NCBI RefSeq assembly: GCF_900185715.1 | Contig: NZ_FYAS01000007.1 | Coordinates: 124,001 to 188,000 of the forward strand | Source of the DNA: Allobosea sp. CS1GBMeth4 | GTDB lineage: Bacteria > Pseudomonadota > Alphaproteobacteria > Rhizobiales > Beijerinckiaceae | Length of the DNA stretch: 64,000 bases | Direction of reading: 5' to 3' | In this document: one piece after another, positions 10,341 through 27,773 of the stretch | How positions within the stretch are numbered: position 1 is the first letter of the stretch | How the letters are laid out: the number at the start of each line of letters is the position of its first letter | Made by a program: the position numbers and the translations under genes | Notes under the pieces: generated by a model | Seen by the model: only the letters and a program-made list of their open reading frames with translations | Databases searched by the model: none | Told to the model about the DNA's origin: nothing

Positions 10341-10365
10341 CGTCACATTCGCAATCAATGCATGC

Positions 10366-10412: not shown

Positions 10413-10439
10413 TAATCCATGTTGCATCGCGCAATCGAG

Positions 10440-11360: not shown

Positions 11361-11527
11361 CTCCGGCTCCCTGGGCCGCGACGGTGGATGGTCCGGGTGA
11401 GGCGGGCATGGCGGCGTATCCGCCGGCCCCCTGGCCGCGTCCTGAGCATGTTTCGTCCCGCCGGATCGCGTTTCCGTCCTGCCGGCAGGATCCGGTTGCG
11501 CGGCGCGACGATGATGCCGTGCGTTTT

Positions 11528-11566
11528 CCCTTTCGCAAGACTATTTTCGCAATCGCGCATTGCGTA
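11528..11566. promoter_or_regulatory. candidate DeoR operator in the kinase/deoR divergent region
   Basis: CCCTTTCGCAAGACTATTTTCG followed by CAATCGCGCATTGCG repeats the pattern at 10366-10412 (shared TTTCGCAAG, TATTTTCG and CGCGCAT). It lies 30-70 bases before the DeoR start and would allow autoregulation and control of the divergent kinase gene. Confidence 0.5.
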
Positions 11567-11597
11567 TAGCGTGGTCTCGGTTGTAGGGCTGCGCCAT

Positions 11598-12368
11598 ATG
11601 GAACCGCTGAGCAAACGTCACGCCGACATCCTCGATATCCTGGGCAAGCGCGGCTATGTCGCGATCGAGGAGATGGTGGCCGCTTTCAACGTCACGCCGC
11701 AGACCGTGCGGCGCGATCTGCAGGACCTCGCCGATCGCGGCCTGCTGCGGCGCCATCACGGCGGCGCCAGCGCCAATCTCTCGACCGCGAACACCGATTA
11801 CGGCCTGCGCATCGTCGAGCACACCGCCGAGAAGGCAAAGATCGCCAGCGCCGCCGCCGAGCTCGTGACCCCCGGCACCTCGCTGTTCATCACGCCGGGC
11901 ACGACCATGGAGGCGCTTGCCACGGCGATCGCCGAGCGTCGTCCGCGCGGGCTGCGCGTCGTCACCAACAGCACCGCCGCGGCGGCGATCCTCGACAAGT
12001 GCCCGGAGATCTCGATCCTGATCACGGGAGGGCACTGGCTCGGGCCGAACCGGGCCTGCGGCGGCATGCACGCCGCCGCCTTCATCGAGAATTATCGCTG
12101 CGACCTGCACATGACCAGCATCGGCGGCATCGATGCGGCCGGGAACCTGCTCGAATACCGCGACGACGAGGCGGTCGTTGGGCGCACCATGCTGCGCAAT
12201 GCCCGCCGCTCGGTTCTGCTCGCCGACCACACCAAGTTCAGCCGCGTCGCCATGGCGCGCCTCGCCCATCTCAGCGAGATCTCGACTTTGGTGACCGACC
12301 GCCAGCCGCCGGCTGTGACCGAGCAGATGATCCGCGACGCACGCTGCGAACTCGTCGTCGCCGGCTGA
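11598..12368 (+). CDS. DeoR/GlpR family transcriptional regulator
   Basis: The 256-residue protein begins MEPLSKRHADILDILGKRGYVAIEEM. It has the DeoR helix-turn-helix at about residues 6-60 (VTPQTVRRDLQDLADRGLLRRHHGGA) and a DeoRC sugar-phosphate sensor domain after it. The ATG at 11598 gives the usual family length. It is divergent from the PfkB kinase gene, and related TTTCG repeats are found next to both the kinase and aldolase genes. The likely role is repression of the carbohydrate module until a phosphorylated intermediate binds. Confidence 0.9.
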   Translation: MEPLSKRHADILDILGKRGYVAIEEMVAAFNVTPQTVRRDLQDLADRGLLRRHHGGASANLSTANTDYGLRIVEHTAEKAKIASAAAELVTPGTSLFITPGTTMEALATAIAERRPRGLRVVTNSTAAAAILDKCPEISILITGGHWLGPNRACGGMHAAAFIENYRCDLHMTSIGGIDAAGNLLEYRDDEAVVGRTMLRNARRSVLLADHTKFSRVAMARLAHLSEISTLVTDRQPPAVTEQMIRDARCELVVAG

Positions 12369-13436: not shown

Positions 13437-14432
13437 TCAGACCGCGGCCTTCTTGATCGCGTCCAGCACCTCGCTGCCGTATTTTCCGACGAAGTCCTTC
13501 TCGACCTCGGCGGTGACGATCCTGGCGAAGGACTCCCGATCGGGGTTCTCGACCGCCTGCATGCCGGCCTTCTTCAGGGCATCGAGGCTCGAGCCTTCGG
13601 TGTCCTCGTTCATCTTGCGCTGGATGCCGGCGCATTCGATCGCGATGCCCTGCAGCATCTGCTGGATCTCGGCCGGCATCGCATCGAACTTGCCCTTGTT
13701 CATCACGACCGGGCCGGTGGTGAAGGCATGGCGGGTCAGCGAGAGATGCTTCTGAACCTCGTTGAACTTGGCGTTGAGGATCAGCGTGACCGGATTCTCC
13801 TGGCCGTCGACCGTGCCGGTCTCCAGCGCGGTGAAGAGCTCGGTGAAGGCCATCGGCGTCGGCACGGCGCCCAGCAGCTGGAAGGCCTTGATATGGGCCG
13901 GGTTCGGCGTGGTCCGGATCTTGAGGCCCTTGATGTCGGCAGCGTTGGCGACCGGGCGGCGATTATTGGTCAGGTTGCGCCAGCCGATCTCCCAGGTGGC
14001 GAGCGCCTTGAGGTTCGATCCTTCCAGCTCCTTGCGCAGCCCGTCGCCGATCGGGCCGTCCATCACGGCGGCGGCATGCTTGCGGCTCTGGATCAGGAAG
14101 GGCAGGTCGAGCACGTTGAGCTTGGGGGCGAGCCCGGTGAAGAACGGGTTGCCGGTCAGGCAGATGTCGAGCGAGCCGCCGCGCACCGCGCTGATCGTCT
14201 GGGCATCCGATCCGAGCGCGCCGTTCGGGAAGACCTGGACCTCGTAGCGGCCCTGGCTCCTGGCCTTGACCTGCTCGGCGAAGAGCAGCGCCGCCTTGTG
14301 CCAGCTGTCCGCCTCCGGATGCGGATGGGCGAAGCGCAGCTTGGTCGCCTGCGCCAGCGCCGGGCGGCCGATGGCGAAGAAGGCGATGCCGGCGCTCGCG
14401 CCGGCGAGGGCGGTCCTGCGGGTGATGGTCAT
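13437..14432 (-). CDS. dctP: TRAP transporter substrate-binding protein (DctP family)
   Basis: The 331-residue protein starts after GGGAGG. Its signal peptide, MTITRRTALAGASAGIAFF, has a paired arginine and may use the Tat route, with a likely cut after ALA. The rest matches the DctP fold: LRFAHPHPEADSWHKAA near the N-terminus and GLKIRTTPNPAHIKAFQLLGAVPTPM, which carries the carboxylate-binding arginine typical of the family. It captures an organic acid in the periplasm for the permease encoded upstream. It is the last gene of the amidohydrolase-dctQ-dctM-dctP operon. Confidence 0.92.
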   Translation of the reverse strand: MTITRRTALAGASAGIAFFAIGRPALAQATKLRFAHPHPEADSWHKAALLFAEQVKARSQGRYEVQVFPNGALGSDAQTISAVRGGSLDICLTGNPFFTGLAPKLNVLDLPFLIQSRKHAAAVMDGPIGDGLRKELEGSNLKALATWEIGWRNLTNNRRPVANAADIKGLKIRTTPNPAHIKAFQLLGAVPTPMAFTELFTALETGTVDGQENPVTLILNAKFNEVQKHLSLTRHAFTTGPVVMNKGKFDAMPAEIQQMLQGIAIECAGIQRKMNEDTEGSSLDALKKAGMQAVENPDRESFARIVTAEVEKDFVGKYGSEVLDAIKKAAV

Positions 14433-14471
14433 GAGCTTGTCCTCCCTGTGGTGTTGTTGTTCGAGGTGCCG

Positions 14472-15755
14472 TCAGCGCCCGTAGAGCCAGCGCGCCGGCA
14501 CGGTGACGATCTCGGGCACGAAGATCAGCAGGAGCAGGATGGCGAGCTGCGCCAGCAGGAAGGGCATCACGCCCCTGACGACGCGATCCATCGGGATGCG
14601 TCCGACGGCGCAGACGACGTTGAGCACGGTGCCGACCGGGGGCGTCAGCAGGCCGATCGCGTTGTTGATGATGAACATCACGCCGAAATAGACCGGGTCG
14701 ATGCCGGCCTGTTTCACGATCGGCATCAGCACCGGCGTCAGGATCAGCACCGTCGGGATGAAGTCGAGCGCGGTGCCGACGACGACGACGAGCAGCATCA
14801 TCGCCAGCATCAGCAGCGTCCTGGATTCGATCAGCGGGCCGAGCAGGGCCGAGACCTGGCCGGGAATGTCGGCGATGGTGATCAGCCAGGCCGAGACCAT
14901 CGCCGCCGCGACCAGGAACATCACCGCCGACGAGGTCTTCAGCGCCGCGAGCAAGGCGGGGCGCAGATGCTCGAGCTTCAATTCGCGATAGATGAAGAAG
15001 CCGACGACACCGGCATAGACCGCGGCGACCACAGCCGCTTCCGTCGGCGTGAACACGCCGGCTTTCATGCCGCCGATGATCAGCACCGGCAGACCGAGCG
15101 CCCAGAGCCCGTCGAGGATCGCGTGGCCGATCTCGCGCAGGGTTGCGCGCTCGACGCGCGCCGCCGGCTCGTCCCGGGCGACGACGGACCAGGTGAGCAG
15201 CAGCGCGAGGCCCATCAGGATGCCGGGCACCACGCCGGCGAGGAAGAGCCGCGTGATCGAGACGCCGGCGGCGACGCCGAAGACGACGAAGCCGATCGAG
15301 GGCGGGATCACCGGCGCGATGATGCCGCCGGCCGAGATCAGTCCGGCGGCGCGCGGCACGTCGTAGCCGGCCTGGCGCATCATCGGCAGCAGGATGGCGG
15401 CGAGGGCCGCGGTATCGGCGACCGCCGAGCCGGAGATGCTCGCCATCACCAGCGCCGCCAGCACCGCGACATAGCCGAGTCCGCCGCGGACATGGCCGAC
15501 CAGCGTCACCGCCAGCGCGATGATCCGCCGCGACAGGCCGCCGGCATTCATCAGCTCGCCGGCGAGCATGAAGAAGGGAACCGCCATCAGCGGGAAGGAA
15601 TCGGCGCCGCCGATCAGGTTCTGCGCCAGGATCTGCGAGTCGAACATGTCGAGCTGCAGCATCAGCGCGATGCCGCAGACGAGCAGCGCCGTCGCGATCG
15701 GCATGCCGAGCGCCATGGCGCCGATCAGCGCCCCCACGAAGACGAAGACGGTCAT
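14472..15755 (-). CDS. dctM: TRAP transporter large permease (DctM)
   Basis: The 427-residue, strongly hydrophobic protein has about 12 membrane segments and the DctM pattern (FFMLAGELMNAGGLSRRII and GVMPFLLAQLAILLLLIFVPEIV). It forms the sodium-driven transport channel. Its start overlaps the dctQ stop by four bases (ATGA), and dctP follows after 39 bases. The substrate is probably a carboxylate processed by the enzymes of this island. Confidence 0.93.
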   Translation of the reverse strand: MTVFVFVGALIGAMALGMPIATALLVCGIALMLQLDMFDSQILAQNLIGGADSFPLMAVPFFMLAGELMNAGGLSRRIIALAVTLVGHVRGGLGYVAVLAALVMASISGSAVADTAALAAILLPMMRQAGYDVPRAAGLISAGGIIAPVIPPSIGFVVFGVAAGVSITRLFLAGVVPGILMGLALLLTWSVVARDEPAARVERATLREIGHAILDGLWALGLPVLIIGGMKAGVFTPTEAAVVAAVYAGVVGFFIYRELKLEHLRPALLAALKTSSAVMFLVAAAMVSAWLITIADIPGQVSALLGPLIESRTLLMLAMMLLVVVVGTALDFIPTVLILTPVLMPIVKQAGIDPVYFGVMFIINNAIGLLTPPVGTVLNVVCAVGRIPMDRVVRGVMPFLLAQLAILLLLIFVPEIVTVPARWLYGR

Positions 15756-16297
15756 CGCCGCTTCTCCGCCGCCTGCTGGTTCTCGAAGGCGGCGAGCTCC
15801 TCCGATTCCGCCCCGACGACGAGTTCGCTTTCGGCCATGCGGCCGGTCAGCAGCCGTGCGAGCGCGGCCAGATTGAGTGCGCCGATGCCGACGCCGCCGG
15901 CGAGGCCGGCGAAATAGGTCACAGCGACCGGTACGCCGGTGACCGGCTGGTGGTTATCGAGATTGATCGCGGCCTGCTGCCAGCAGCCGGTGACCAGCAT
16001 TGCCATGCAGAGCAGCGACAGCGCCTCGACCGCGAGCCGGCACCACCAGCGGCCGTTGCGGCCGAGCATGGTGACGATCGTGGTCATGCCGAGATGCTGG
16101 CCGTCCTTGGCCACCAGGAAGGCCCCGCCGAAGGTCAGCCAGACAAAGATCAGCCGCGACAATTCCTCCGAGGAGGTGATGCCCGAATTGAAGCCGTAGC
16201 GCAGCACGACATTGCCGAAGACCATCGCGATCATGGTGACGAAGCCGGCGATCAGCAGGTCCTCGGCCAGACGCAGGAGCAGGGCGCGCAGCTTCAT
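15752..16297 (-). CDS. dctQ: TRAP transporter small permease (DctQ)
   Basis: The 181-residue protein has four membrane segments and the DctQ signature region SEELSRLIFVWLTFGGAFLVAKDGQHLGM. It pairs with the large permease. The C-terminal 30 residues are charged and probably cytoplasmic. It overlaps its neighbours by four bases on both sides, showing a tightly coupled operon with the amidohydrolase gene first. Confidence 0.92.
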   Translation of the reverse strand: MKLRALLLRLAEDLLIAGFVTMIAMVFGNVVLRYGFNSGITSSEELSRLIFVWLTFGGAFLVAKDGQHLGMTTIVTMLGRNGRWWCRLAVEALSLLCMAMLVTGCWQQAAINLDNHQPVTGVPVAVTYFAGLAGGVGIGALNLAALARLLTGRMAESELVVGAESEELAAFENQQAAEKRR

Positions 16298-17274
16298 CGG
16301 GCTGCTCCGTTCCCGGCCGGGGCGGGCGCGAGCCCGTACCAGCGCGCGGCGTTGTCATGGAACAGGGCGAGCCGCTCGTGCGCCGGCCGCCGGCGCGTCG
16401 CGGCCTTGAAGACGTCGAAGATCGTGGCGAACGTGGCGCACAGGCTGTCGACCGGGAAATTGCTGGCGAAGGCGCAGCGCTCGACGCCGAAGGCCGAGAT
16501 CACGCCCTCGATCACGGGCGCCTGCAGCTCCAGTGTCCAGGCCCGGCCCGGTACGCCGATGCCGGAGATCTTGGCGACGACGTTGGGCTCGCGCGCCAGC
16601 CGGTCGAGTGCCGCGCGCCAGGCGGCGAGCCCCTCGGTGCTGCGGTCGGCCGGCAGGCCGGCATGGTTGAGGATGATCGTGGTCGCCGGGAAATCGCGGG
16701 CGAGCTCGGCCGCCTCGTCGAGATGCCACCACGGCGTCTGCAGATCGAAGCTGAGGCCGGCCGGGGCGAGCCGGGCGTAGCCCTCGCGCCAGGTGCGGTC
16801 ACGCATCGAGCCGGGCGCGGCGAAATTCGCATGGTGGTCCTCGCGCGCAACGGCTTTGGGCTTGTGCCGGACGCTGCGCACCAGGGGCAGTTCGCGATAA
16901 GCCGCGACGACCTCGCCGACATCGGCGCGATCGAGCCAGATCTGGCCGATCGCCGCATTGGGCAGCCCGTGCTCTCGCGCGACGGCGCTGGCCCAGCGCA
17001 TCTCTCCGATCGGGTCGCGCGGATCCCATTCGCCTTCCATCAGCACGCTGCCGACGACGAGATGCCCTGCGCTGGCCCGGCGGTAATCGGCCGGCATGAA
17101 GTCGCGCCTGATCGCGCTGTAGTCGCCATAGCGGAAAGCGACCGGCCGGTCGCTCAGCCAGGGGTGATAATTGCGTGCGAGGTCGAAGAAATGGTGGTGG
17201 GCGTCGATGATCGGCAGGTCGTCGTCGGCCCCGGAGGCGAGGAAGCGGGCGCGCTGGTCGTGCCTGGCGGCCAT
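16294..17274 (-). CDS. amidohydrolase 2 family metal hydrolase
   Basis: The 326-residue TIM-barrel protein has DAHHHF (D24, H26, H28) as the N-terminal metal motif, NHAG near residue 210 and ASNFPVDSL near 280 with the C-terminal aspartate. This is the pattern of the Amidohydrolase_2 group, which includes lactonases such as 2-pyrone-4,6-dicarboxylate hydrolase and L-fuconolactonase, as well as decarboxylases. Being first in an operon with a carboxylate TRAP transporter, it may open a sugar-acid lactone or similar ring. The exact substrate is unknown. Confidence 0.8.
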   Translation of the reverse strand: MAARHDQRARFLASGADDDLPIIDAHHHFFDLARNYHPWLSDRPVAFRYGDYSAIRRDFMPADYRRASAGHLVVGSVLMEGEWDPRDPIGEMRWASAVAREHGLPNAAIGQIWLDRADVGEVVAAYRELPLVRSVRHKPKAVAREDHHANFAAPGSMRDRTWREGYARLAPAGLSFDLQTPWWHLDEAAELARDFPATTIILNHAGLPADRSTEGLAAWRAALDRLAREPNVVAKISGIGVPGRAWTLELQAPVIEGVISAFGVERCAFASNFPVDSLCATFATIFDVFKAATRRRPAHERLALFHDNAARWYGLAPAPAGNGAAR

Positions 17275-17398
17275 GGCCTAGCTCCGCCGCGGCGGAAGGC
17301 GGGTCTGCCTGTGGCCGTGCCCGGCCGGTCCGGTGCTCGCGCCCGCCATCCCTGCCTCCCGATCGTTCCCCGGCGGACGTCCGCCTTGGTTATCCCAT

Positions 17399-17420
17399 TA
17401 TTGTATGCTGCATACAGAAT
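17399..17420. promoter_or_regulatory. candidate GntR operator before the amidohydrolase-TRAP operon
   Basis: A perfect palindrome, TGTATGC-T-GCATACA, lies at 17402-17416 about 130 bases upstream of the amidohydrolase start. The flank ATTATTGTATGC matches the site at 19733-19750 beside the GntR gene (ATTCTTGTATGC). FadR/FCD-type GntR proteins commonly bind TTGTAT-like palindromes. Confidence 0.6.
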
Positions 17421-17432
17421 GTTGCCGCAAAG

Positions 17433-18830
17433 TCAAAGCGCGCCGGGGTTGAACAGCACGTCCTGCTCCCGGCGCAGGCGAACCAGCGTCGTCTCCTCGT
17501 CGAGCGCGATGTCGGCGCAGCTGATGACGGCGCCGCGCGCCACCTTGCGCACCACCGGCCGGCCGGCGGTGAGATAGTAGGGGACGGGCTCGTTCGACCC
17601 GAGCGGTCGGGCAGGGGTCAGTTGCGGCTCCAGCCCCGCGATGACATGGCGATAGCCCATGGTCAGCGTCTCGCCCGGCGCGAGGTCGCGGCTCGCCCGT
17701 GCCGTCAGATCGACGCGCGGCAGGACCTCGGCGCCACCGGTCGACTGGCCGAGCAGGGCGGCCGACAGCGCCGACATCGGCGCCTCCGCACCGAGCAGGT
17801 GGACGGGATTGTGCAGCAGGACGTAGCGGCCGTCCGGCGAACAGGGGATGCCCTTGCCGGCCAGGAGCTTGCCGGTCGTGAGGTCGGGCGTCTCGGCGAT
17901 GACGAACACGCCGCCGGCGAAGGAGAGCTCGTCCGGGCGCCGCAGGCAGTTGAACATGTCGACCCGCCCCGTGCCGGAGAGCAGGCCGCCCTCCGCGGCC
18001 GGCCGGAACAGGCTCGGCAACTCCGTCGTGCGGGCGATCGGTGCATGCATCGCCGCGATATCCGGCATCAGCCCGGTATGGTTGGCGACGATGCCCATCT
18101 CGCAGAGATCGGGCACGGTGGCGCGCGGGAAGGGCAGTCTGGCCCGCGCGTCGAGGAGCGCGAGCGGATCGCTCCCGAGCCTGCCGAAGGCCGCGGCGAA
18201 ATCGGCGGCGGGCGCGGCCTTCTCCCAGGCCGTGACCGTGCCGGCTTCGGGATCCCAGACGAAATCGGATTCGCTCGACTTGCCGGCGGCGACGATCGGC
18301 AGGCCGAGCATGCGGGCCCAGCCGATCAGCCCGATCAGCAGGCTCGGCTGGTCGCCGTCGACCGGGGTATGCACGACGCCGTTCTGCCGGGCGCGATGCG
18401 CCAGGACCGGGCCGATGATGCATTCGGCCTCCTTGGTCACCATCACGAGATGGCGGCCGGCCTCGATCGCGGCGAGCGCGGTCGTCGCCGCGCCTTCCGG
18501 GTCGCCGGTCGCCTCGACCACGACATCGACGGCAAGCCCGTCGAGATGGGCGGCATCGCCGACCAGCGCGACGAGCCCGCGCGCGAGCGCGGCCTTCGCC
18601 TCGGCAGCGCTGCGGCAGGCCATGATCTCGCCCTCGGCCAGCCCGCCGGCGAGCGCCGCCTTGCGGGCGCGGCCGATGTCGAGGTCGCAGACGACCCGCG
18701 GCTCGATATGCGGGGCGCGCCGGGCCTGGCCGATGAAGCTCGCGCCGAATTCGCCGGCGCCGACCAGGGCGGCGGAGATCACGCGATCGGAGGGGCCCGA
18801 TTTCAGGGCGAACAGGTTCTCGATGTTCAC
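17433..18830 (-). CDS. DRL-like NAD(P)-dependent oxidoreductase with C-terminal SAF domain
   Basis: The 465-residue protein has an N-terminal Rossmann domain (ALVGAGEFGASFIGQA), a homoserine-dehydrogenase-like middle with DVVVEATGDPEGAATTAL and VTKEAECIIGP, and a C-terminal SAF-type domain (from about 385, including LAPGETLTMG). This layout matches the DRL (DXR-like) family. In Brucella one DRL protein makes methylerythritol phosphate in place of DXR; other members may act on other branched polyols or sugar acids. Its place among catabolic genes favours a catabolic oxidoreductase here. It is separated from the upstream cyclase gene by a hairpin. Confidence 0.7.
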   Translation of the reverse strand: MNIENLFALKSGPSDRVISAALVGAGEFGASFIGQARRAPHIEPRVVCDLDIGRARKAALAGGLAEGEIMACRSAAEAKAALARGLVALVGDAAHLDGLAVDVVVEATGDPEGAATTALAAIEAGRHLVMVTKEAECIIGPVLAHRARQNGVVHTPVDGDQPSLLIGLIGWARMLGLPIVAAGKSSESDFVWDPEAGTVTAWEKAAPAADFAAAFGRLGSDPLALLDARARLPFPRATVPDLCEMGIVANHTGLMPDIAAMHAPIARTTELPSLFRPAAEGGLLSGTGRVDMFNCLRRPDELSFAGGVFVIAETPDLTTGKLLAGKGIPCSPDGRYVLLHNPVHLLGAEAPMSALSAALLGQSTGGAEVLPRVDLTARASRDLAPGETLTMGYRHVIAGLEPQLTPARPLGSNEPVPYYLTAGRPVVRKVARGAVISCADIALDEETTLVRLRREQDVLFNPGAL

Positions 18831-18884
18831 GGCAGGCAGGTCTTTCGCTTGAGGCTTTTCGTCACGACGGTCTGCGTCATTGGG

Positions 18885-18909
18885 GGAGGCTCCGGCCGAC
18901 GGAGCCTCC
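18885..18909. repeat. intercistronic hairpin between cyclase and DRL-like genes
   Basis: Perfect 10-base arms GGAGGCTCCG (18885-18894) and CGGAGCCTCC (18900-18909) with a five-base loop. Both flanking genes are on the minus strand. There is no T-tract, so it is more likely an mRNA-stabilising or attenuating hairpin than a terminator. Confidence 0.5.
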
Positions 18910-18998
18910 AGTGAGGGGAGAGGCCTACGGCTCCTGGGCTGCTTCGCTGCGCTCGTAATGAGTTCATTCCGGTCGACATCCGCTTCGGTCTGCCGGGC

Positions 18999-19670
18999 TC
19001 AGACGGCCAGGCCCTCGATGGCATAGATGCGGGCGGGAGCGCCGTCGGCGTTCGGGATTAGCAGCGGCGCCGCCGAGAACAGGTTGCGCGGCGCCGTGAG
19101 CCTGCTCGTGTTCACGACGTATTCGATCAGCGTGACGCCATGGCTGAGCAGGACGTGATGCGTCACATGCTCGGGCTTGGGCACCTCCTTGCCTTCGAGC
19201 AGGAGCCGGATCGGATAGTCCTGCGGGAAGTCGAAGGCGACGGCGCTCGGCTTGCGGTCCGCCAGCCACCGAGCCGCTTCCAGCGTCAGCCAGGGGGCCT
19301 CGGTCCAGAAGGTCTTGTCGTTGTAGTCGCGCCTGTCGCTCCACTGCGCGGCCAGCAGCAGGATTTCGCCCTCGGCCCCGCCTGGATCGGCGGCGGCGAG
19401 ATGCTCCGGGCCGATCGGCTCGTTCGCCGGCCGCCCGCTCAGGTCGAGCACGCGGCAGGGGCCGACGACCCGGTCGAGCGGCGTCGCCTCGATCGTCGGC
19501 GCGCCGGCGACGAAATGCGCGGCGGCGTCGACATGCGAGAAGCCATGGCACGGCCCGGCGATCTTCGAGACGCGGAACTGGTCGCCCGCCGCGATGTCGC
19601 CCTTGATCGAAAGCTCGACCGGCCAGCGGAAATGCGGCGCGATCGGCATGGAAAGGTCGACGATGTGCAT
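18999..19670 (-). CDS. cyclase family protein (kynurenine formamidase-like)
   Basis: The 223-residue protein has the metal-binding signature of the cyclase/KynB family in slightly altered form: H42-G-F-S-H46-V-D48-A-A-A-H52-F, where the usual threonine and proline are serine and alanine. All metal ligands are kept. Family members hydrolyse N-formylkynurenine or open or close rings of other acids. No tryptophan-pathway gene is nearby, so a different substrate within this catabolic island is more likely. It is divergent from the GntR regulator gene. Confidence 0.78.
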   Translation of the reverse strand: MHIVDLSMPIAPHFRWPVELSIKGDIAAGDQFRVSKIAGPCHGFSHVDAAAHFVAGAPTIEATPLDRVVGPCRVLDLSGRPANEPIGPEHLAAADPGGAEGEILLLAAQWSDRRDYNDKTFWTEAPWLTLEAARWLADRKPSAVAFDFPQDYPIRLLLEGKEVPKPEHVTHHVLLSHGVTLIEYVVNTSRLTAPRNLFSAAPLLIPNADGAPARIYAIEGLAV

Positions 19671-19732
19671 GGCGCAGTCCGGATTGCGGAGGAAGGTGCC
19701 GGCGACCCGGCCGTTCCGTTCTAGGTGTCCAT

Positions 19733-19750
19733 ATTCTTGTATGCAAGAAT
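19733..19750. promoter_or_regulatory. candidate GntR operator in the cyclase/gntR divergent region
   Basis: A perfect palindrome with arms ATTCTTG and CAAGAAT around TATG lies 40 bases before the GntR start and 63 before the divergent cyclase start. The core CTTGTATGCAAG resembles the palindromes at 17399-17420 and 23615-23626. Confidence 0.65.
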
Positions 19751-19789
19751 TTTTCGACAGCGAGCCGGCCGCGCGGTATACATGGCGTC

Positions 19790-20557
19790 ATGGACAGCCC
19801 GGCCGACACCACACCACTCGCAGCGCTTCTCGCCCAGCTGCCGCAACCCGAGCCGGGCCGGCGCAAGGGTGCCTTGCACGGCAGCACGGTGGCGCGATTG
19901 CGCAACCTGATCGTCACCGGGGCGCTGGCGCCTGGTGCCAAGCTGAACGAGCGCGAGCTCTGCCTGCAGCTCGGCGTCTCGCGCACGCCGGTGCGGGAGG
20001 CGATCAAGACGCTGACGCAGGACGGCCTGCTGCGGGCGATGCCGAACCATTCATCGGTGGTGTCGGAGCTCGATGTCGGAGAGATCGAGGCGTTGATCGA
20101 CGTCGTCTCGACGATCGAGGGCCTGGCCGGCGAGCTCGCCGCGGCGCGCGCCAGCGACGAGGCCGTCGCCGAGATCGGCATGCTGCACTACAAGATGATG
20201 CTGCACCACACCCGCGACGAGCTGCCGGGTTATTTCGAGGCCAACAAGGCCTTCCACCGCCGCATCGTCGAGCTTGCCGGCAATCCGGTCCTGCTCTGGG
20301 TCTGGGAGCTGCTGGCCCTCAGGGTCGACCGTGCGCGCTATTCGTCCAATCTCTGGCCCAAGCGCTGGAAGATGGCGATCCAGGAGCACGAGCAGATCCT
20401 GGCGGCCCTGGCCGCCGGCGATGCCGCGCTGGCGAGCCAGCGCCTGCGCGAGCATGTCCGCAATGGTCTGTCAGGGCTCGTCGCGGCGCTGAAGGAGCGG
20501 GGAGAGGCTGCGGCACGTACCGAAGCACCTACACCATCTTCGTCATTCCGGCCGTAG
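19790..20557 (+). CDS. GntR family transcriptional regulator (FCD/FadR type)
   Basis: The 255-residue protein has a GntR winged helix at about residues 30-95 (STVARLRNLIVTGALAPGAKLNE, SRTPVREAIKTLTQDGLL) and an all-helical FCD sensor domain after it. Candidate metal-ligand segments are FHRRIVELAGNP, QEHEQIL and REHVRNG. FCD domains usually bind small carboxylates. It is divergent from the cyclase gene across a perfect palindrome. Similar palindromes before the amidohydrolase-TRAP and CoA-transferase operons make it the likely regulator of the whole island. Confidence 0.9.
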   Translation: MDSPADTTPLAALLAQLPQPEPGRRKGALHGSTVARLRNLIVTGALAPGAKLNERELCLQLGVSRTPVREAIKTLTQDGLLRAMPNHSSVVSELDVGEIEALIDVVSTIEGLAGELAAARASDEAVAEIGMLHYKMMLHHTRDELPGYFEANKAFHRRIVELAGNPVLLWVWELLALRVDRARYSSNLWPKRWKMAIQEHEQILAALAAGDAALASQRLREHVRNGLSGLVAALKERGEAAARTEAPTPSSSFRP

Positions 20558-20645
20558 CAAGCGGAGCGCCGCAATCCATCGCAGAGCGCGACGCCCTTCG
20601 ATGGATTCCGGAGCTGCGTCGCTGCGCGGCTTGTCCGGAATGACG
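20541..20645. repeat. type A-like palindromic element
   Basis: Arms CGTCATTCCGG (20541-20551) and CCGGAATGACG (20635-20645) bound the element, with inner arms around AATCCATCG/CGATGGATT. It fills the gap between the convergent GntR and dehydrogenase genes and overlaps the last codons of the GntR gene. Confidence 0.7.
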
Positions 20646-20673
20646 CGCGACTTGGATGGAAAGCTTTGAATTC

Positions 20674-21558
20674 TCAATGCGCTCCGCTCTCTACCTCCGG
20701 CAGCACCTCGAGCACCGCGATCGCATCGAGCTCGCTGTGGCCCTGCGCCACCAGCATCCGGTAGAGCGTCGTCGCCTGCGCCACCATCGGCATGGCGAGG
20801 TGGTGCTCGCGCCCGGCCTCCATCAGCATCTCCAAGTCCTTCAGCACTTGCCTCGCATAGCCCTTCGGGGCGAAGTCGCGCGCGACCATGCGCGGCATCA
20901 TCGCCTGCAGCACCGCCGAATTGCCGAGGCCGGGCGCCAGCGCAGCCGGGATCTTGTCGGCATCGACGCCATAGGCCTCGGCCAGCCGCAGCGATTCCGC
21001 CACGACGACGTAGTTGGTCAGGCACAGCGCCTGGTTGACCAGCTTGGTCGCCTGGCCGGCGCCGACCACGCCCATATGCGTGAACAGGCCGAGGCTTTCG
21101 GCCAGCGGCCGCACCTGCGCGATCGTCTCCGGCGCGCCGCCGGCCATGATCGCGAGCTTGCCGGCCTCAGCCGCGGGCGGGCCGCCGGAGACAGGCGCAT
21201 CGATGAAGCCGATGCCGGCTTCCGCCAGCGCCGCGGCGAGCGCCTTGGTCACGCCAATCTCGGTCGTCGAGAAGTCGATGACGATGGCGCCGGGCCGTGG
21301 CTTCGCGGAGAGGATGCCAGCTTCGCCTGTTATCACCGCCTGCACCGCCTTGGTGGTGGTTACGGCGATGCAGACGGGATTGGCCCGCTCGGCGACCTCG
21401 GCCGGGGAGGCGGCGAGGGCGACGCCGAGCGCTTCGGCCTCGGCCCGCCGGGCCGGGTCGAGATCGTAGCCGACGACGCTGCGGCCGGTCGCGATCAGGC
21501 GCTTGCAGAAGCCAGCGCCCATCAGCCCGAGTCCGATGAAGCCGATGGTCTCGCTCAT
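20674..21558 (-). CDS. 3-hydroxyisobutyrate dehydrogenase-like NAD(P)-dependent oxidoreductase
   Basis: The 294-residue protein has the beta-hydroxyacid dehydrogenase signatures: GFIGLGLMGAG for NAD(P) at residues 6-16, DAPVSGGPPAAEAGKL at 120-135 for substrate, and the catalytic lysine K172 in GAGQATKLVNQ. It oxidises a 3-hydroxy acid or reduces the semialdehyde in the cytoplasm. Its ATG overlaps the enoyl-CoA hydratase stop by four bases, and the CoA-transferase gene is just before that. The three genes form one operon on the minus strand. Confidence 0.88.
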   Translation of the reverse strand: MSETIGFIGLGLMGAGFCKRLIATGRSVVGYDLDPARRAEAEALGVALAASPAEVAERANPVCIAVTTTKAVQAVITGEAGILSAKPRPGAIVIDFSTTEIGVTKALAAALAEAGIGFIDAPVSGGPPAAEAGKLAIMAGGAPETIAQVRPLAESLGLFTHMGVVGAGQATKLVNQALCLTNYVVVAESLRLAEAYGVDADKIPAALAPGLGNSAVLQAMMPRMVARDFAPKGYARQVLKDLEMLMEAGREHHLAMPMVAQATTLYRMLVAQGHSELDAIAVLEVLPEVESGAH

Positions 21559-22337
21559 TTGCCCTGCCAGTTCGGCGTGCGCTTGCCGAGGAAGGCCTCC
21601 ATGCCCTCGCGGAAATCGGCGCTGGTGTAGCAGAGGGCGACGAGGTCGTCGCCGTCGACATCGGCGCTCGCCGCCTGGGTCAGCCGGCGCAGCGCCTCCT
21701 TGGTGGCGCGCATGGTCAGCGGGGCGTGGCCGCGGATCGTTTCCGCCAGCTCCTTCACCCGTGTCATCAGCGCGGGATGGTCGGCGACGAGCTCGTTGTA
21801 GAGGCCGACGCGGTGGCCTTCCTCGGCCTCGACCAGCCTCGCGGTGAAGATGATGTCCTTGACGCGGGCCGGGCCGAGCAGGCTGGCGAGCCGGGCGTAG
21901 TTCGCCATCGACAGGCAATTGCCGAGCGTGCGCGCCACCGGGAAGCCGAAGCGGGCCGATCGGGTGGCGATGCGAAGGTCGCAGGCGCAGGCGATCGCCG
22001 CGCCGCCGCCGGTGACCGCTCCGGCGATCGCCGCGATGGTCGGGACCGTGCAGCTCTCGATCGCGGTGATCACCCGCTCGATCCGGTTCTCGTAGGCGAG
22101 GGCGTCCTCGGCGCTCCTGAAGGCGCGGAACTGGGCGATGTCGGTGCCGGCGGCGAAGGCCTTGTCGCCGGCGCCGGTGACGACGATCACCTTCGGCGCG
22201 CCGTGTTTCTCGGGATTGCCGAGGATCTCGGCCAATCCCTCGTACATGGCGAAGGTCAGGGCGTTGCGCGCCTGCGGCCGGTTGAGCGTCACCGTGCCGA
22301 CCCCGTCGGCGACGTCGTAGAGGATCTCGTCCGTCAT
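21555..22337 (-). CDS. enoyl-CoA hydratase/isomerase family protein
   Basis: The 260-residue crotonase-fold protein has the oxyanion-hole region AFAAGTDIAQF near 60-70 and IAGAVTGGGAAIACACDLRIA near 104-124. The two glutamates of classical hydratases are not both obvious (TGGGAAIA and GFPVART replace the usual segments), so the reaction could be hydration, isomerisation or C-C cleavage of a CoA ester. The gene sits between the CoA-transferase and dehydrogenase genes in a coupled operon, suggesting it works on the CoA ester made by the transferase. Confidence 0.85.
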   Translation of the reverse strand: MTDEILYDVADGVGTVTLNRPQARNALTFAMYEGLAEILGNPEKHGAPKVIVVTGAGDKAFAAGTDIAQFRAFRSAEDALAYENRIERVITAIESCTVPTIAAIAGAVTGGGAAIACACDLRIATRSARFGFPVARTLGNCLSMANYARLASLLGPARVKDIIFTARLVEAEEGHRVGLYNELVADHPALMTRVKELAETIRGHAPLTMRATKEALRRLTQAASADVDGDDLVALCYTSADFREGMEAFLGKRTPNWQGK

Positions 22338-22348
22338 CCCAAAACCTT

Positions 22349-23542
22349 TCAGATCGCGCCTTCGGCCCGGAGGCCGGCAATGGCCGTCTCGTCATAGCCG
22401 AGTTCGGCGAGGATTTCGTCGTTGTGATCGCCGGCGTCGGGCGTCGGCGTCGCGATGCCGGCAGGCGTGCGCGACAGGCTGACCGGCTCGCCGACGACAC
22501 GGATGTCGCCGAGCTTGGGATGTCGGACCGGCTGCGCGATGCCGAGGTGCTGCACCTGCGGATCCTCGAACACCGCGTCGACCGAGTAGATCGGCCCGGC
22601 CGGCACCGACGCCGCCTCGAACGCCGCGAGCCAATGGGCGCTGTCCTGCGTCGTCAGGATCTCCTCGAGCAGCACGCGCAGCTGCGGCCGCGCCGCGAAG
22701 CGCTTCTCCATGCTGTCGAAGCGCGGATCGCCGGCGAGCTCCGGACGGCCGATCGCGCCGCAGAAGGAGCGCCAGTGCCCCTCGGCGCCGACGCCGAGAT
22801 TGATATGGCCGTCGCGCGTCGCGTAGACGCCCATCGGCGTCGCATAGGGGTGGTCGTTGCCCGCCTGCGGCGGCACCTTGCCCTCGACCAGATAGCGCGC
22901 CACCTGGAAATCCATCATGCCGATCTGGGCCTCGAGCAGCGAGGTCTGCACCCATTGCCCCTTCCCCGAGACGGCACGCTCCTGCAGCGCGACCAGCGCG
23001 CCGATCGCGCCATAGAGCCCGGCGGCGGAATCGGCGACGGCGATGCCGGCGCGCACCGGCCCCTGGCCGGGCAGGCCGGTGACCGACATCATCCCGCCCA
23101 TGCCCTGGGCGATCTGGTCGAAGCCGGCGCGCAGGCGATAGGGCCCGCTCTGGCCGAAGCCCGAGATCGAGACCAGGATCAGGCGCGGGTTGAGGGCGTG
23201 CAGCGTCTCGAAATCGAGGCCGAGCCGCTCCTTCACATCGGGCCGGAAATTCTCGACCAGCAGGTCGGCGCCGGCGATGAGCCGGCGCAGGATCGCCCTG
23301 GCCGGCTCCTTCTTCAGGTTGAGCGTCAGGGAGCGCTTGTTCCGGTGCAGATTCTGCATGTCGTAGCCATGCCGCGGCCCGCTCATGTTCTCGTTCGGAT
23401 CGAGCCCCGGCGGGCTTTCGATCTTGATCACGTCGGCGCCGAAATCGGCGAAGATGCGGGCGCAGGTCGGCCCGGCCCGCACGCGCGTCAGATCGAGCAC
23501 GCGCAGGGTTTCGAGAGCGGTGGAGGGGGTCGGGCGAGGCAT
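22349..23542 (-). CDS. CaiB/BaiF family (class III) CoA-transferase
   Basis: The 397-residue protein matches the formyl-CoA transferase family. It begins with LRVLDLTRVRAGPTCARIFADFGADVIKIE, has ENFRPDVKERLGLD in the middle, and the catalytic aspartate is D171 in GIAVADSAAGLYGAI. These interlocked dimers move CoA between carboxylic acids. It is the first gene of an operon with enoyl-CoA hydratase and hydroxyacid dehydrogenase genes and probably activates the acid brought in or produced by this island. A palindrome lies about 75 bases before the start. Confidence 0.88.
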   Translation of the reverse strand: MPRPTPSTALETLRVLDLTRVRAGPTCARIFADFGADVIKIESPPGLDPNENMSGPRHGYDMQNLHRNKRSLTLNLKKEPARAILRRLIAGADLLVENFRPDVKERLGLDFETLHALNPRLILVSISGFGQSGPYRLRAGFDQIAQGMGGMMSVTGLPGQGPVRAGIAVADSAAGLYGAIGALVALQERAVSGKGQWVQTSLLEAQIGMMDFQVARYLVEGKVPPQAGNDHPYATPMGVYATRDGHINLGVGAEGHWRSFCGAIGRPELAGDPRFDSMEKRFAARPQLRVLLEEILTTQDSAHWLAAFEAASVPAGPIYSVDAVFEDPQVQHLGIAQPVRHPKLGDIRVVGEPVSLSRTPAGIATPTPDAGDHNDEILAELGYDETAIAGLRAEGAI

Positions 23543-23614
23543 GGCGTTCCGGCAGGCGTGTTCGGGGCGCCGACTATCCCGTCAACGTCCGGAAGCGTCA
23601 ATCATCAGCCTGGT

Positions 23615-23626
23615 CTTGCATGCAAG
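23615..23626. promoter_or_regulatory. candidate GntR operator in the CoA-transferase/ApnO-like divergent region
   Basis: The perfect 12-base palindrome CTTGCATGCAAG lies 73 bases before the CoA-transferase start and about 139 before the divergent dehydrogenase start. It differs by one base per strand from the core CTTGTATGCAAG at 19733-19750. Confidence 0.5.
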
Positions 23627-23764
23627 GTCGACGGGCGGGGCATGCGTCCGCCGGAGGGCGGGCAGACGCGGGCGAGGGGATCCGGCGTTGACGTCTGGCA
23701 GCAGGGCTTGCGAGCTTGTCGGGGACTGCGGCGCTGACCGGCGCGCGAACCCGGGAGGAAGACG

Positions 23765-24592
23765 ATGACGGTGGTCGCCCTGTTCGGCGCCGGCGGCAAG
23801 ATGGGCATGCGGCTCGGCCGCAACCTCGCCCGCTCGCGCTTCGAAACACGCCATGTCGAGGTGAGCCCGGCCGGCCGCGACCGGGTCCGCGAGGCCTTGG
23901 GCGTGGCCTGCGTCGAGCCGGAAGCGGCGATCGCCGGCGCCGCGGTCGTGATCCTGGCGGTGCCGGATACCGCTGTCGGCGCGGTCGCGCGCGAACTCGT
24001 GCCGAAGCTCGCCGCGGGGACGATCGTCGCCATCCTCGACGCCGCGGCGCCTCATGCCGGGCATCTGCCCGAGCGCGCCGACATCACCTATTTCGTCACC
24101 CATCCCTGCCACCCGCCGATCTTCAACGACGAGACCGACCCGGCGGCACGGGCCGATCATTTCGGCGGGATCGCGGCGAAGCAGCACATCGTCAACGCGC
24201 TGATGCAGGGGCCGGAGGCGCATTACGCCCTCGGCGAGGAGGTGGCGCGGGCGATCTGGGCGCCGGTGATGCGCTCGCATCGCGTCACCGTCGCGCAGAT
24301 GGCGATCCTCGAGCCCGGTCTCTCCGAGACTGTCTGCGCCACGCTGCTCGACGCGATGCGCGAGGCGATGGAGGAGGCGATCGCCCGCGGCGTGCCGCGC
24401 CAGGCCGCGCATGACTTCCTGCTCGGCCACATGAACATCCTGGCGGCCGTCACGTTCGGCGAGGTCCAGGGCGTCTTCTCCGACGCCTGCAACAAGGCGA
24501 TCGTCTTCGGCAAGGAGACGATCCTGAAGCCCGACTGGAAGCGCCTGTTCGAGCCGCAGGAGATCGCCGACAGCGTGCGGCGCATCACGTGA
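23765..24592 (+). CDS. ApnO-like (D-apionate oxidoisomerase family) dehydrogenase
   Basis: The 275-residue protein starts seven bases after GGAGG. It has an NAD-binding domain of the 6-phosphogluconate dehydrogenase type (VALFGAGGKMGMRLGRNLAR) and a C-terminal phosphogluconate dehydrogenase-like domain with MNILAAVTFGEVQGVFSDACNKAI. This layout is that of the D-apionate oxidoisomerase group, which oxidises and rearranges a branched sugar acid. The other known apionate genes (oxo-isoapionate kinase, decarboxylase) are not in this window, so the substrate may differ. It is divergent from the CoA-transferase operon. Confidence 0.72.
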   Translation: MTVVALFGAGGKMGMRLGRNLARSRFETRHVEVSPAGRDRVREALGVACVEPEAAIAGAAVVILAVPDTAVGAVARELVPKLAAGTIVAILDAAAPHAGHLPERADITYFVTHPCHPPIFNDETDPAARADHFGGIAAKQHIVNALMQGPEAHYALGEEVARAIWAPVMRSHRVTVAQMAILEPGLSETVCATLLDAMREAMEEAIARGVPRQAAHDFLLGHMNILAAVTFGEVQGVFSDACNKAIVFGKETILKPDWKRLFEPQEIADSVRRIT

Positions 24593-24785: not shown

Positions 24786-24913
24786 GTTCTGTCTGAAACC
24801 CGGGCGTGCTCAGGCATGGATCCGGCTCGTCGCTGCGCTTCGGCCCGGATGACTCGGAGCGATGACACCGGCTATCAAGGGGCGCCGGCTGCTGCCCGGG
24901 AATGGAGATTGTG

Positions 24914-25546
24914 ATGACGCTTGCCGAAAAGCCGCACGCGACGGTCGACGACGCGGCGCAGCTGCGTTCGTTTCTCGGCGAGGTGCACCCGCTCGCGGAG
25001 AAGAAGGTGCTCGACCGGCTCGACCGGTTCTGCCGCGATTTCATCGCGCTCTCGCCCTTCCTCGTCCTGGCGAGCGCCGACAGCGAGGGCCGGGCAGATG
25101 CCAGCCCGCGCGGCGACGGCCCCGGCTTCGTGCAGGTGCTCGACGACCGGACGCTGCTGATTCCCGACCGGCGCGGCAACAACCGGGTCGATTCCTACGG
25201 CAATGTCCTGGGCGCGCCCGGCGTCGGCCTGATCTTCTTCGTGCCGGGCATCAACGAGACGCTGCGCGTCAACGGCCGGGCGCGGCTGACCACCGACGCC
25301 ACGCTGCTGGCGCCCCTGGCCATGCAGGAGAAGGCGCCGAAGCTCGGCCTGATCGTCTCAGTCGAGGAAGCCTATTTCCATTGCGGCAAGGCGCTGATCC
25401 GCTCGAAGCTGTGGGCGCCGGAGTCGCAGGTCGAGCGCGGGAGCTTCCCCAGCCTCGGCCGCGTCGTTGCCGAGCAGACCAGGGCGATCGACCCTACCGA
25501 AGCCGACGCCAATGTCGAAGAGGGCTACCGCACGCGGCTCTACTGA
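24914..25546 (+). CDS. pyridoxamine 5'-phosphate oxidase-like flavin protein
   Basis: The 210-residue protein starts at the ATG six bases after GGAG. A split-barrel flavin-binding domain is recognised from FLVLASADSEGRADASPRGDGPGFVQVLDDRTLLIPDRRGNN, typical of the MSMEG_1061-like pyridoxamine-phosphate-oxidase-related family, together with EAYFHCGKALIRSKLW. Function in this group is poorly known; F420- or FMN-dependent reductions are possible. It is followed by the ModE-like gene after 27 bases and may share its transcript. Confidence 0.8.
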   Translation: MTLAEKPHATVDDAAQLRSFLGEVHPLAEKKVLDRLDRFCRDFIALSPFLVLASADSEGRADASPRGDGPGFVQVLDDRTLLIPDRRGNNRVDSYGNVLGAPGVGLIFFVPGINETLRVNGRARLTTDATLLAPLAMQEKAPKLGLIVSVEEAYFHCGKALIRSKLWAPESQVERGSFPSLGRVVAEQTRAIDPTEADANVEEGYRTRLY

Positions 25547-25573
25547 GCGTTGCGGGGCGACGGAGGACTGCCC

Positions 25574-25972
25574 TTGTCAAAGGCCGATCGGCCCCTGCCG
25601 GCCACGCGCTTCAGTTTCCGGCTCGACTTCTCGCCGGGCGGGCGTCTCGGCCCCGGCAAGGTGCAACTGCTGGAATCGATCTGCGAGACCGGCTCGATCT
25701 CGGCCGCCGGCCGCGCGATGAAGATGTCCTATCGTCGCGCCTGGCTGCTGGTCGACGATCTCAACCGCATTTTCCGGGTACCGCTGGTCGAGGCCCAGCC
25801 CGGCGGGGCCAAAGGCGGCGGCGCGCATCTCACCGCGCTCGGCCGCGAGGTCGTCGCCCATTACCGCGCGATCGAGGCGAAGGCGCTGGCGGCCGGTGCC
25901 GCCGAGATCGCGGAACTGCGCGCCGCGATTTCGCCGACCGCGCCCGAGCGCGAGCCCGGCAGGAAGGCCTGA
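25574..25972 (+). CDS. ModE-like winged-helix molybdate regulator without a sensor domain
   Basis: With a TTG start seven bases after GGAGG, the protein has 132 residues. It holds the ModE N-terminal winged helix (GPGKVQLLESICETGSISAAGRAMKMSYRRAWLLVDDLN) but lacks the two molybdate-binding Mop domains of full ModE (about 260 residues). Short ModE-like proteins of this kind are common in alphaproteobacteria. It converges on modC with four bases between stops, and a Mo-box lies before modA, so control of the modABC operon is likely. Confidence 0.85.
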   Translation: MSKADRPLPATRFSFRLDFSPGGRLGPGKVQLLESICETGSISAAGRAMKMSYRRAWLLVDDLNRIFRVPLVEAQPGGAKGGGAHLTALGREVVAHYRAIEAKALAAGAAEIAELRAAISPTAPEREPGRKA

Positions 25973-25976
25973 GCGC

Positions 25977-27068
25977 TCACGGCGTATCGATCGAGACGCT
26001 CTTGATCACGGCATAGACCGCGCTGCCGGGGGCGAGCCGCAATTGCTCCGCCGATTTCGCCGTCAGGCGGGCGAGCAGGCCGGCGCCGTTGCAATCGAGC
26101 CTCACCTCGAGCGCGGCGCCGTCGCCATGCCGGCCGCCGATCGCGGAGACGGTTCCCGGCAGGACGTTCAGGGCGCTGATCTCGTCGAGCGGCCTGAGGC
26201 TGAGCATCACGTCCCTGGCGAGGATGCGCACGCGCAGCTGCGCTCCTTCCGGCACGCTGCGCCGCGCGATCTGCAGCGGCCCCATCGGCGTCTGCAGGAT
26301 CGTCAACCCGTGTTCGGGCTCATGACGCAGGACGCGGGCCTCGATGATCGCGCCGGCTTCCGGGGCGCTCGAGAGGATCGGTATGTCGGGGCGGGACATG
26401 AGCTCGGCAGTCGGCCCGCTCATCGTCACCCGGCCCTGGTCGAGGATGACGAGATGCGTCGCGAGCCGTGCCACCTCGGCGATCGAGTGCGAGACATAGA
26501 CGATCGGAATGCCGAAGCCGTCGCGCAGGCGCTCGATATGGGGCAGGATCTCGGCCTTGCGCTGCTCGTCGAGCGAAGCGAGCGGCTCGTCCATCAGGAG
26601 CAGGCCCGGCTTCGCCAGCAAGGCACGGCCGATCGCGACGCGCTGCTTCTCGCCGCCGGAGAGCGTGCCGGGGGCTCTGTGCAGCAGATGGCCGATGCCG
26701 AGCAGGTCGAGCACGTCGTCGAGCCTACTGCCGCGATCCTCCGTCCTGGGAGCGAACCAGCGACCATAGAGCAGGTTCTGCCGCACCGTCAGATGCGGGA
26801 ACAGCCGCGCCTCCTGGAAAACATAGCCGATGCGACGCCGATGTTTCGGCACGAAGATGCCGGCCGCGCTGTCGACCATCACCCGCCCGTCGACGACGAC
26901 GCGGCCGGCCTGCGGCCGGATCAGGCCCGATATCACGTTGATGAGCGTGGTCTTGCCCGAGCCCGAGCGCCCGAACAGCGCCGTCAGGCGCCCGTTCGAG
27001 GCGAAGGCGGCGTCGAGCGCGAAGGCACCCAGCCGATGCCTCGCGGAGACCTCGACGACGGCGCTCAT
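25977..27068 (-). CDS. modC: molybdate ABC transporter ATP-binding protein
   Basis: The 363-residue ATPase has Walker A GRSGSGKTT, signature LSGGEKQRVAIGRAL, Walker B LLLMDEPLASLDE and switch histidine in YVSHS. A C-terminal Mop/TOBE domain (about 290-355, QLRVRILARDVMLSLRPLDEISALNVLPG) identifies it as ModC. It powers molybdate uptake through ModB. The ATG at 27068 overlaps the modB stop by four bases. Confidence 0.95.
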   Translation of the reverse strand: MSAVVEVSARHRLGAFALDAAFASNGRLTALFGRSGSGKTTLINVISGLIRPQAGRVVVDGRVMVDSAAGIFVPKHRRRIGYVFQEARLFPHLTVRQNLLYGRWFAPRTEDRGSRLDDVLDLLGIGHLLHRAPGTLSGGEKQRVAIGRALLAKPGLLLMDEPLASLDEQRKAEILPHIERLRDGFGIPIVYVSHSIAEVARLATHLVILDQGRVTMSGPTAELMSRPDIPILSSAPEAGAIIEARVLRHEPEHGLTILQTPMGPLQIARRSVPEGAQLRVRILARDVMLSLRPLDEISALNVLPGTVSAIGGRHGDGAALEVRLDCNGAGLLARLTAKSAEQLRLAPGSAVYAVIKSVSIDTP

Positions 27069-27763
27069 GCGACGGGTAGCCGGCGCCCGACCAGCCGCGC
27101 CAGCAGTTCCGACGCCAGCAGCGCCGCGACCGAGATCGCGATCGAGATCAGGGTGAGGCGCATCGCGCCGGCATCGCCGTCGGGGACCTGGGTGAGGGTG
27201 TAGATCGCCGAAGGCAGGGTCTGCGTCTCGCCAGGGATGTTGGAGACGAAGGTGATGGTCGCGCCGAATTCGCCCATCGCCTTGGCGAAGCAGAGGATCA
27301 TCCCTGCGAGGATGCCGGGCAAGGCGAGCGGCAGCGTTACCGTCAGGAACACCCAGAACGGGCCGGCGCCGAGCGTTCCCGCCGCATCCTCGAGCTTGCG
27401 GTCGATCGCCTCGATCGAGAGCCTGATCGCCCGGACCAGCAGCGGAAAGCCCATCACCGCGCAGGCGAGCGCGGCGCCCGTCCAGCGGAACGACAGGACG
27501 ATGCCGAACCAGTCGTCGAGGACCTGGCCGATCGGCCCGCGCCGGCCGAAGCCGATCAGCAGGAGGTAGCCGGTGACGACCGGCGGCATGATCAGCGGCA
27601 GATGGATGAGCGCGTCGAGCAGCGACTTGCCCCAGAAGCGTCCGCGCGCCAGCAGCCAGGCGACCGCGAGCCCGGGCAGCAGGCTCGCCAGCATGGCGGT
27701 GGTGGCGACGACCAGGCTGAGGCGGACAGCCGTCCATTCCTGCGGCGACAGCCAGTCGCTCAC
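27065..27763 (-). CDS. modB: molybdate ABC transporter permease
   Basis: The 232-residue membrane protein starts MSDWLSPQEWTAVRLSL and has about five membrane segments. It has the ModB patterns LIHLPLIMPPVVTGYLLLIGFGRRGPIG and the coupling loop EDAAGTLGAGPFWVFLTVTLPLALPG. It is the channel of the molybdate importer, coupled by a four-base overlap to modC and ten bases after modA. Confidence 0.95.
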   Translation of the reverse strand: MSDWLSPQEWTAVRLSLVVATTAMLASLLPGLAVAWLLARGRFWGKSLLDALIHLPLIMPPVVTGYLLLIGFGRRGPIGQVLDDWFGIVLSFRWTGAALACAVMGFPLLVRAIRLSIEAIDRKLEDAAGTLGAGPFWVFLTVTLPLALPGILAGMILCFAKAMGEFGATITFVSNIPGETQTLPSAIYTLTQVPDGDAGAMRLTLISIAISVAALLASELLARLVGRRLPVA

Positions 27764-27773
27764 GAGCGATCTC

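Follow-up and report, generated by a model that had tools for sequence, protein, structure and literature searches.

INTRODUCTION

Among described systems, the aldolase-DUF1537 tetronate pathway (LtnD/DenD, OtnI, OtnK and OtnC; PMC10580937, PMC12540250) is a close counterpart of the genes considered here; LtnD and OtnI precede OtnK in this four-step route (PMC12540250). Another point of comparison is DXR type II, or DRL, of Brucella (PDB 3UPL), an isoprenoid enzyme. A 2013 study described its relatives, the DLO families, as uncharacterised; those of their representatives that were tested failed to complement DXR (PMC3847144). Here we analyse a window of 64,000 nucleotides (G000:C48:124001-188000) from the 5.07-Mb genome, G000, of a soil Bosea, in which positions 13437-23542 hold a tripartite ATP-independent periplasmic (TRAP) transporter, two lactonase-like hydrolases, a DLO oxidoreductase, a GntR regulator and a CoA-transferase operon. 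We propose, with a probability of about 0.5, that these genes form a GntR-controlled two-operon regulon for the import and oxidation of a C4 polyhydroxy acid and its lactone, the acid being a tetronate (a stereoisomer of threonate or erythronate, or a close analogue).

The proposed system resembles the DUF1537 pathway in its implied C4 sugar-acid end products, in the presence of OtnK in the window genome, and in DLO orthologues that stand beside OtnK/OtnC elsewhere. It differs in that the island has no LtnD-grade enzyme (155 bits against an LtnD cut-off of 350, at 28% identity), OtnI, OtnK or OtnC; instead it has DLO, which would serve the first one or two steps, the TRAP and lactonase-like genes and a CoA arm, and its regulator is GntR whereas that of the DUF1537 pathway is DeoR. 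As far as sequence can tell, the set would be a variant of C4 sugar-acid catabolism built on an uncharacterised oxidoreductase family. The names used for DUF1537 proteins, TRAP ligands and the apionate pathway follow NCBIfam, openly available literature and general knowledge.

RESULTS AND DISCUSSION

Two conserved operons share an operator

Gene spacing points to three transcription units plus gntR, not to a single pathway operon. Operon (a), on the minus strand, runs in the order cyclase-family hydrolase (Cyc), DLO, amidohydrolase (AmH), DctQ, DctM and DctP, with gntR divergent from it; operon (b), also on the minus strand, consists of caiB, a crotonase gene (ech) and a beta-hydroxyacid dehydrogenase gene (hibdh), with ApnO divergent from it. 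Nine named relatives, and Bosea further removed, retain the order Cyc-DLO-AmH-DctQMP-GntR down to ∼70% identity, so this grouping is not due to chance. A related Rhizobiales genome has Cyc-DLO-crotonase-DctQ-DctM-DctP adjoining a cluster of PdxA, a tripartite tricarboxylate transporter (TTT) and an amidohydrolase (L030). Cyc was present in 10/10 Bosea genomes with the window-type DLO (DLO-A) vs 5/27 without it (descriptive p = 9e-6), and in one genome (G013) it stands beside a second TRAP system and hibdh-ech-caiB with no DLO near. Moreover, caiB-ech(-hibdh) lies 4.4-7.6 kb from DLO in all eight sampled genomes that have both caiB and the window-type DLO, and one genome has caiB 6 kb from a paralogous DLO, DLO-B.

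The promoter regions of operons (a) and (b) share a palindrome, which reads TTCTTGCATACAAGAA and ATCTTGCATGCAAGAT in close relatives. Only four places in the genome carry the 13-mer TCTTGYATRCAAG, one of them before (a) and one before (b), and the reversed control gave 0. Among 61 genomes, this operator was found within ∼10 kb of gntR in 14/14 that carry a gntR orthologue, whereas only 10/47 without the orthologue had any operator site (p = 9e-8). Because the operator precedes both operons, is rare in the genome and lies near gntR in all 14 genomes, (a) and (b) are predicted to be, probably, one GntR regulon. The operator also stands directly upstream of DLO-B in two genomes; a third has it before an amidohydrolase-DLO-B pair, and all three have a gntR orthologue close by. 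The two DLO types and both operons are most simply read as predicted targets of one regulator. The catabolic genes at positions 13437-23542 are thus a real and conserved set, probably co-regulated, and the operator makes a loose 'island' a defined candidate regulon. The preliminary description had regarded positions 13437-24592 as one catabolic island; the conserved set and the near-genome-unique operator uphold this, whereas its division into three units plus gntR, and ApnO, which is not tied in, do not.

Operator sites were also seen away from these genes. One precedes an orphan TctC (Bug) binding-protein gene (L116:10255, L119:9258; 91% identity in another Bosea), a possible regulon member; another precedes a conserved cluster of a QRPTase-like, two AA_synth-like and two further proteins without Pfam match (L117:9789; L118:9650; L120:9453; L124:9299). 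In G013 a gntR orthologue is flanked on both sides by the operator; a different TRAP system comes next, with an SDR gene, away from that genome's Cyc and caiB (L122:9860-10690).

DLO and its genomic contexts

The window DLO aligns with 3UPL over both domains and belongs to the same fold family. R320 of the Brucella enzyme, which has been tied to DXR-II dimerisation (PMC3847144), corresponds to N341 in this alignment; T229 falls just outside the aligned block, one residue ahead of it, and corresponds to D241 when the alignment is extended. We rejected an identification as DXR-II since the key residue R320 is replaced, and, again unlike DXR-II, DLO has paralogues in catabolic operons. The protein is best placed, from its sequence, among the uncharacterised DLO proteins.

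DLO orthologues stand beside OtnK and OtnC in Paracoccus, Alloyangia, Palleronia, a comamonad and Klebsiella, and in these contexts the NCBIfam cut-offs were passed by OtnK in four and by OtnC in two. This arrangement needs at least four changes on the DLO tree, where it falls on four separate branches. The P. ferrooxidans locus reads GntR, DLO, DctP, Cyc, DctQ, DctM, OtnK, OtnC, with 62% (DctP) and 67% (Cyc) identity to the window proteins. No LtnD or OtnI was annotated within the DLO-OtnK-OtnC operons read, and Agrobacterium has a separate LtnD-OtnK-OtnI set several kb from DLO. The recurrence with OtnK and OtnC across alpha-, beta- and gammaproteobacteria offers a concrete and cheap test of DLO function. 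A second recurrent context consists of PdxA and TTT, sometimes with a dihydroxyacetone-kinase family gene.

It is conceivable, though we think it unlikely, that DLO proteins run DXR-type chemistry in reverse, as oxidoisomerases that in one step oxidise a possibly branched C4 sugar acid, for example 2-(hydroxymethyl)glycerate, and rearrange it to 3-oxo-tetronate, so replacing LtnD/DenD and OtnI. Were this true, operons limited to DLO, OtnK and OtnC, without an isomerase, would be accounted for, and the sister families of DXR-II, so far uncharacterised, would gain a function.

In most Bosea, GntR, DLO-B, PdxA and TTT form one cluster. DLO-B was present in only 1/10 genomes with DLO-A vs 23/27 without it (p = 5e-5), and PdxA-TTT was retained without DLO-B in five genomes read among the DLO-A carriers. 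It looks as if DLO-A functionally replaces DLO-B, a reading subject to the caveat of clade sampling. In another Bosea, a DLO copy adjoining a TTT transporter is reported with one internal TAA and is a possible pseudogene (L035; G025:C5:243716-245068).

Transporter, lactonase-like enzymes and substrate

DctP has its closest solved relatives in 4P47, 4P9K/4PAK, 4PDD, 4PDH and 4NQ8. 4P47 is unliganded, and closed homologue structures hold pantoate or erythronate, except for three sugar-acid binders and one orotate binder (PMC11668362, whose text does not assign ligands to each PDB entry). DctP keeps the ligand residues listed there, including the aromatic at position 196 (4P47 numbering; Table 1); these five are also common in other TRAP solute-binding proteins and are not decisive for the ligand. 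The AlphaFold model of DctP is poor, with a predicted local distance difference test score (pLDDT) of 44. As for the hydrolases, AmH has relatives of 54% and 50% identity beside PdxA, TTT, TRAP and Cyc genes in Chelatococcus and Ponticoccus, and stays below the L-fucono-1,5-lactonase cut-off (NF052480, 77 bits against 400). Cyc holds the metal motif of its fold and likewise stays below the kynurenine formamidase (arylformamidase) cut-off (TIGR03035, 46 bits against 223). An acid or lactone as substrate, as the preliminary description suggested, agrees with the TRAP binding protein and with both lactonase-like hydrolases; its use of ApnO as evidence for a branched sugar acid is not supported, on grounds of linkage and co-occurrence with OiaX-like proteins (see below).

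These data also bear on a different substrate, pantoate/pantolactone or another branched hydroxy acid. Pantolactone would then be opened by the lactonase-like enzymes and pantoate imported by TRAP; DLO would act as a dehydrogenase of the pantoate type, and the branched C4-C5 acid would be degraded as its CoA ester by CaiB, crotonase and the HIBADH-like enzyme. Solved DctP relatives do bind pantoate as well as erythronate (PMC11668362), operon (b) is probably co-regulated, judging by the shared operator, and its enzymes resemble, by inference, valine-type catabolism of branched acids; yet the same DctP, Cyc and DLO family occur with the C4 sugar-acid enzymes OtnK/OtnC in Paracoccus, and HIBADH family cut-offs are not reached, so that we regard a pantoate regulon as doubtful.

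For the tetronate regulon, gene content, conservation, the common operator and the recurring linkage of DLO with OtnK/OtnC and with PdxA are observations; the substrate class, the enzyme order and all chemistry are inferred. TRAP DctPQM would import the C4 acid, Cyc and/or AmH would open the lactone, and DLO would use NAD(P)+ to oxidise the acid at or towards C3 and so form 3-oxo-tetronate. An unlinked genomic OtnK and/or a PdxA-like enzyme could then convert 3-oxo-tetronate to dihydroxyacetone phosphate or dihydroxyacetone and CO2; a true OtnK (598.6 bits against a cut-off of 350) is encoded elsewhere in the same genome. A second co-regulated arm may consist of CaiB, crotonase and the hydroxyacid dehydrogenase; in it an acid, perhaps a deoxy or side product, would become a CoA thioester.

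Several points weigh against this proposal. Because OtnC was not found in the genome (no NF043034 match at E<=1e-40 in G000) and the island has no kinase, the route below 3-oxo-tetronate is incomplete, and the CoA-transferase has no explanation in tetronate pathways. PDB ligands of TRAP solute-binding proteins are often co-purified (PMC11668362). The plasmid neighbourhoods were hand-picked from a match list, so their proportions are no survey, and the genomes are related, so Fisher tests overstate independence and all p values are descriptive. Finally, in 14/23 Bosea the caiB-ech pair is distant from DLO, by 98 kb or more or on a separate contig, and the presence of caiB does not track DLO-A (p = 0.26).

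Because of these 14 Bosea, we first suspected two unrelated operons side by side by chance, one for tetronate uptake and the other a housekeeping caiB-ech pair. The shared operator reversed that view: where caiB stands beside operon (a), the operator is perfect in 7/8 genomes and degenerate in the eighth (G017), whereas no site was found near caiB in the genomes where it is unlinked to operon (a). A chance juxtaposition is accordingly improbable. The preliminary description had held that genes which rarely occur together would speak against an island; separation of this kind was found for ApnO and, in the 14/23 Bosea, for caiB, not for the core operon.

The CoA arm

Aligned with 5z7r, the crotonase has lost the Glu of FGQPEV (FGFPVA in the window) and has Asp at the second site. 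An assignment as a normal enoyl-CoA hydratase is not supported, as the usual catalytic glutamate is absent, and the hydration step that had been proposed for this locus is doubtful. CaiB is of the same class III type as the succinate-glutarate and L-carnitine CoA-transferases; it differs from them in falling below every equivalog cut-off, with 322 bits to the succinate-glutarate model and 128 bits against a cut-off of 413 for L-carnitine CoA-transferase. The hydroxyacid dehydrogenase is also below all equivalog cut-offs, including that of the HIBADH family.

A deoxytetronate route, from 3,4- or 2,4-dihydroxybutanoate and its hydroxy-gamma-butyrolactone, would account jointly for the CoA arm and the two lactonase-like enzymes. 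CaiB and crotonase would act in the manner of the CaiB/CaiD pair for carnitine, with a C4 beta-hydroxy acid as substrate, and DLO would take the non-deoxy analogue. The CaiB-plus-crotonase pairing is indeed retained across most Bosea loci read, but the scheme is purely conjectural, the crotonase lacks the usual glutamate and the L-carnitine cut-off is not reached, and we give this route little credence.

ApnO and a probable separate apionate route

The ApnO-like protein is a PGDH_C dehydrogenase (394 bits to 5T57). The preliminary description had included it in a single linear pathway for a branched sugar acid, and in 7 sampled Bosea it does adjoin caiB, divergent across the shared operator region. 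However, ApnO is elsewhere in the other 15 ApnO-positive Bosea and in most Bosea shows no linkage to caiB or DLO, and operator 2 is nearer to caiB (73 bp) than to ApnO (139 bp). Moreover, an OiaX-like RuBisCO-like protein was present in 24/24 ApnO-positive vs 9/37 ApnO-negative genomes (p = 7e-10), and the two genes are 0.9-5.9 kb apart in six genomes. We rejected ApnO as a pathway member on this linkage and co-occurrence, and a linear pathway that includes it is very improbable.

No OiaK or OiaX was seen near ApnO in the window. On another contig of the same genome, C32, a TRAP transporter, a VOC-like protein, an OiaX-like protein (441 bits) and an OiaK-like kinase (299 bits) stand together (L095, G000:C32:150001-164780, at 4220-10412), both Oia-like proteins being below their NCBIfam equivalog cut-offs of 700 bits. 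This is likely an apionate-type locus that would take the product of the window ApnO. Because OiaX-like proteins accompany ApnO in all 24 genomes and are linked to it in six, ApnO is probably outside the regulon and best assigned to this separate apionate route. The likeness to the D-apionate pathway (ApnO, OiaK, OiaX) thus concerns the window ApnO-like gene and the OiaK-/OiaX-like genes on the other contig, whereas none of the pathway's genes lies inside the TRAP/DLO or CaiB operons.

Gene content of the locus and its flanks

All nine families named in the preliminary description are present at 13437-24592, at the coordinates given there, with strong Pfam matches (Table 1), and no further convincing gene was seen there, in line with its statement that few other genes intervene. 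E-values were 1.7e-90 (DctP), 1.2e-25 (DctQ), 9e-35 (Amidohydro_2), 2e-24 (DRL_cat), 8e-21 (Cyclase), 2e-120 (CoA_transf_3) and 9e-72 (PGDH_C), and 9e-141 for DctM with TIGR00786; GntR/FCD, NAD_binding_2/11 and ECH_1 were also matched. That this combination and its substrate were unassigned was likewise borne out.

Table 1. Features of the locus, in window positions
Feature	Position	Strand	Remarks
dctP, TRAP solute-binding protein	13437..14432	-	keeps D76, R152, R173, F196, N213 of erythronate/pantoate-binding group
dctM, TRAP large permease	14472..15755	-	TIGR00786, 469 bits
dctQ, TRAP small permease	15752..16297	-	PF04290
amidohydrolase_2, lactonase-like (AmH)	16294..17274	-	Pfam; relatives beside PdxA/TTT/TRAP/Cyc in Chelatococcus and Ponticoccus
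DLO-family oxidoreductase, DRL-like and sister to DXR-II; proposed to be a dehydrogenase or oxidoisomerase of C4 sugar acids	17433..18830	-	
Cyc, metal hydrolase of the cyclase family with an HxxxHxDxxxH motif; first in operon (a)	18999..19670	-	
operator 1, CTTGTATGCAAG palindrome	19736..19747	.	66 bp before cyc, 43 bp before gntR
gntR, FCD-type regulator, divergent from operon (a)	19790..20557	+	
beta-hydroxyacid dehydrogenase, GarR/HIBADH superfamily, no subtype	20674..21555	-	
crotonase-fold protein (PRK06144) without canonical catalytic glutamate	21555..22337	-	
class III CoA-transferase (CaiB/SUGCT-like), first gene of operon (b)	22349..23542	-	
operator 2, CTTGCATGCAAG palindrome	23615..23626	.	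73 bp before caiB
ApnO-like PGDH_C dehydrogenase, probably separate apionate route, outside regulon	23765..24592	+	

On the left flank, window positions 6392-12368 hold a separate set with an ABC permease, a sugar-type binding protein, a PfkB-type kinase and a DeoR regulator, which includes a 468-aa protein without Pfam match at 8850-10256. The right flank (24902-28637), assigned partly by eye, contains a PNPOx-like protein, a short LysR-type helix-turn-helix protein and molybdate-type ABC transporter genes.

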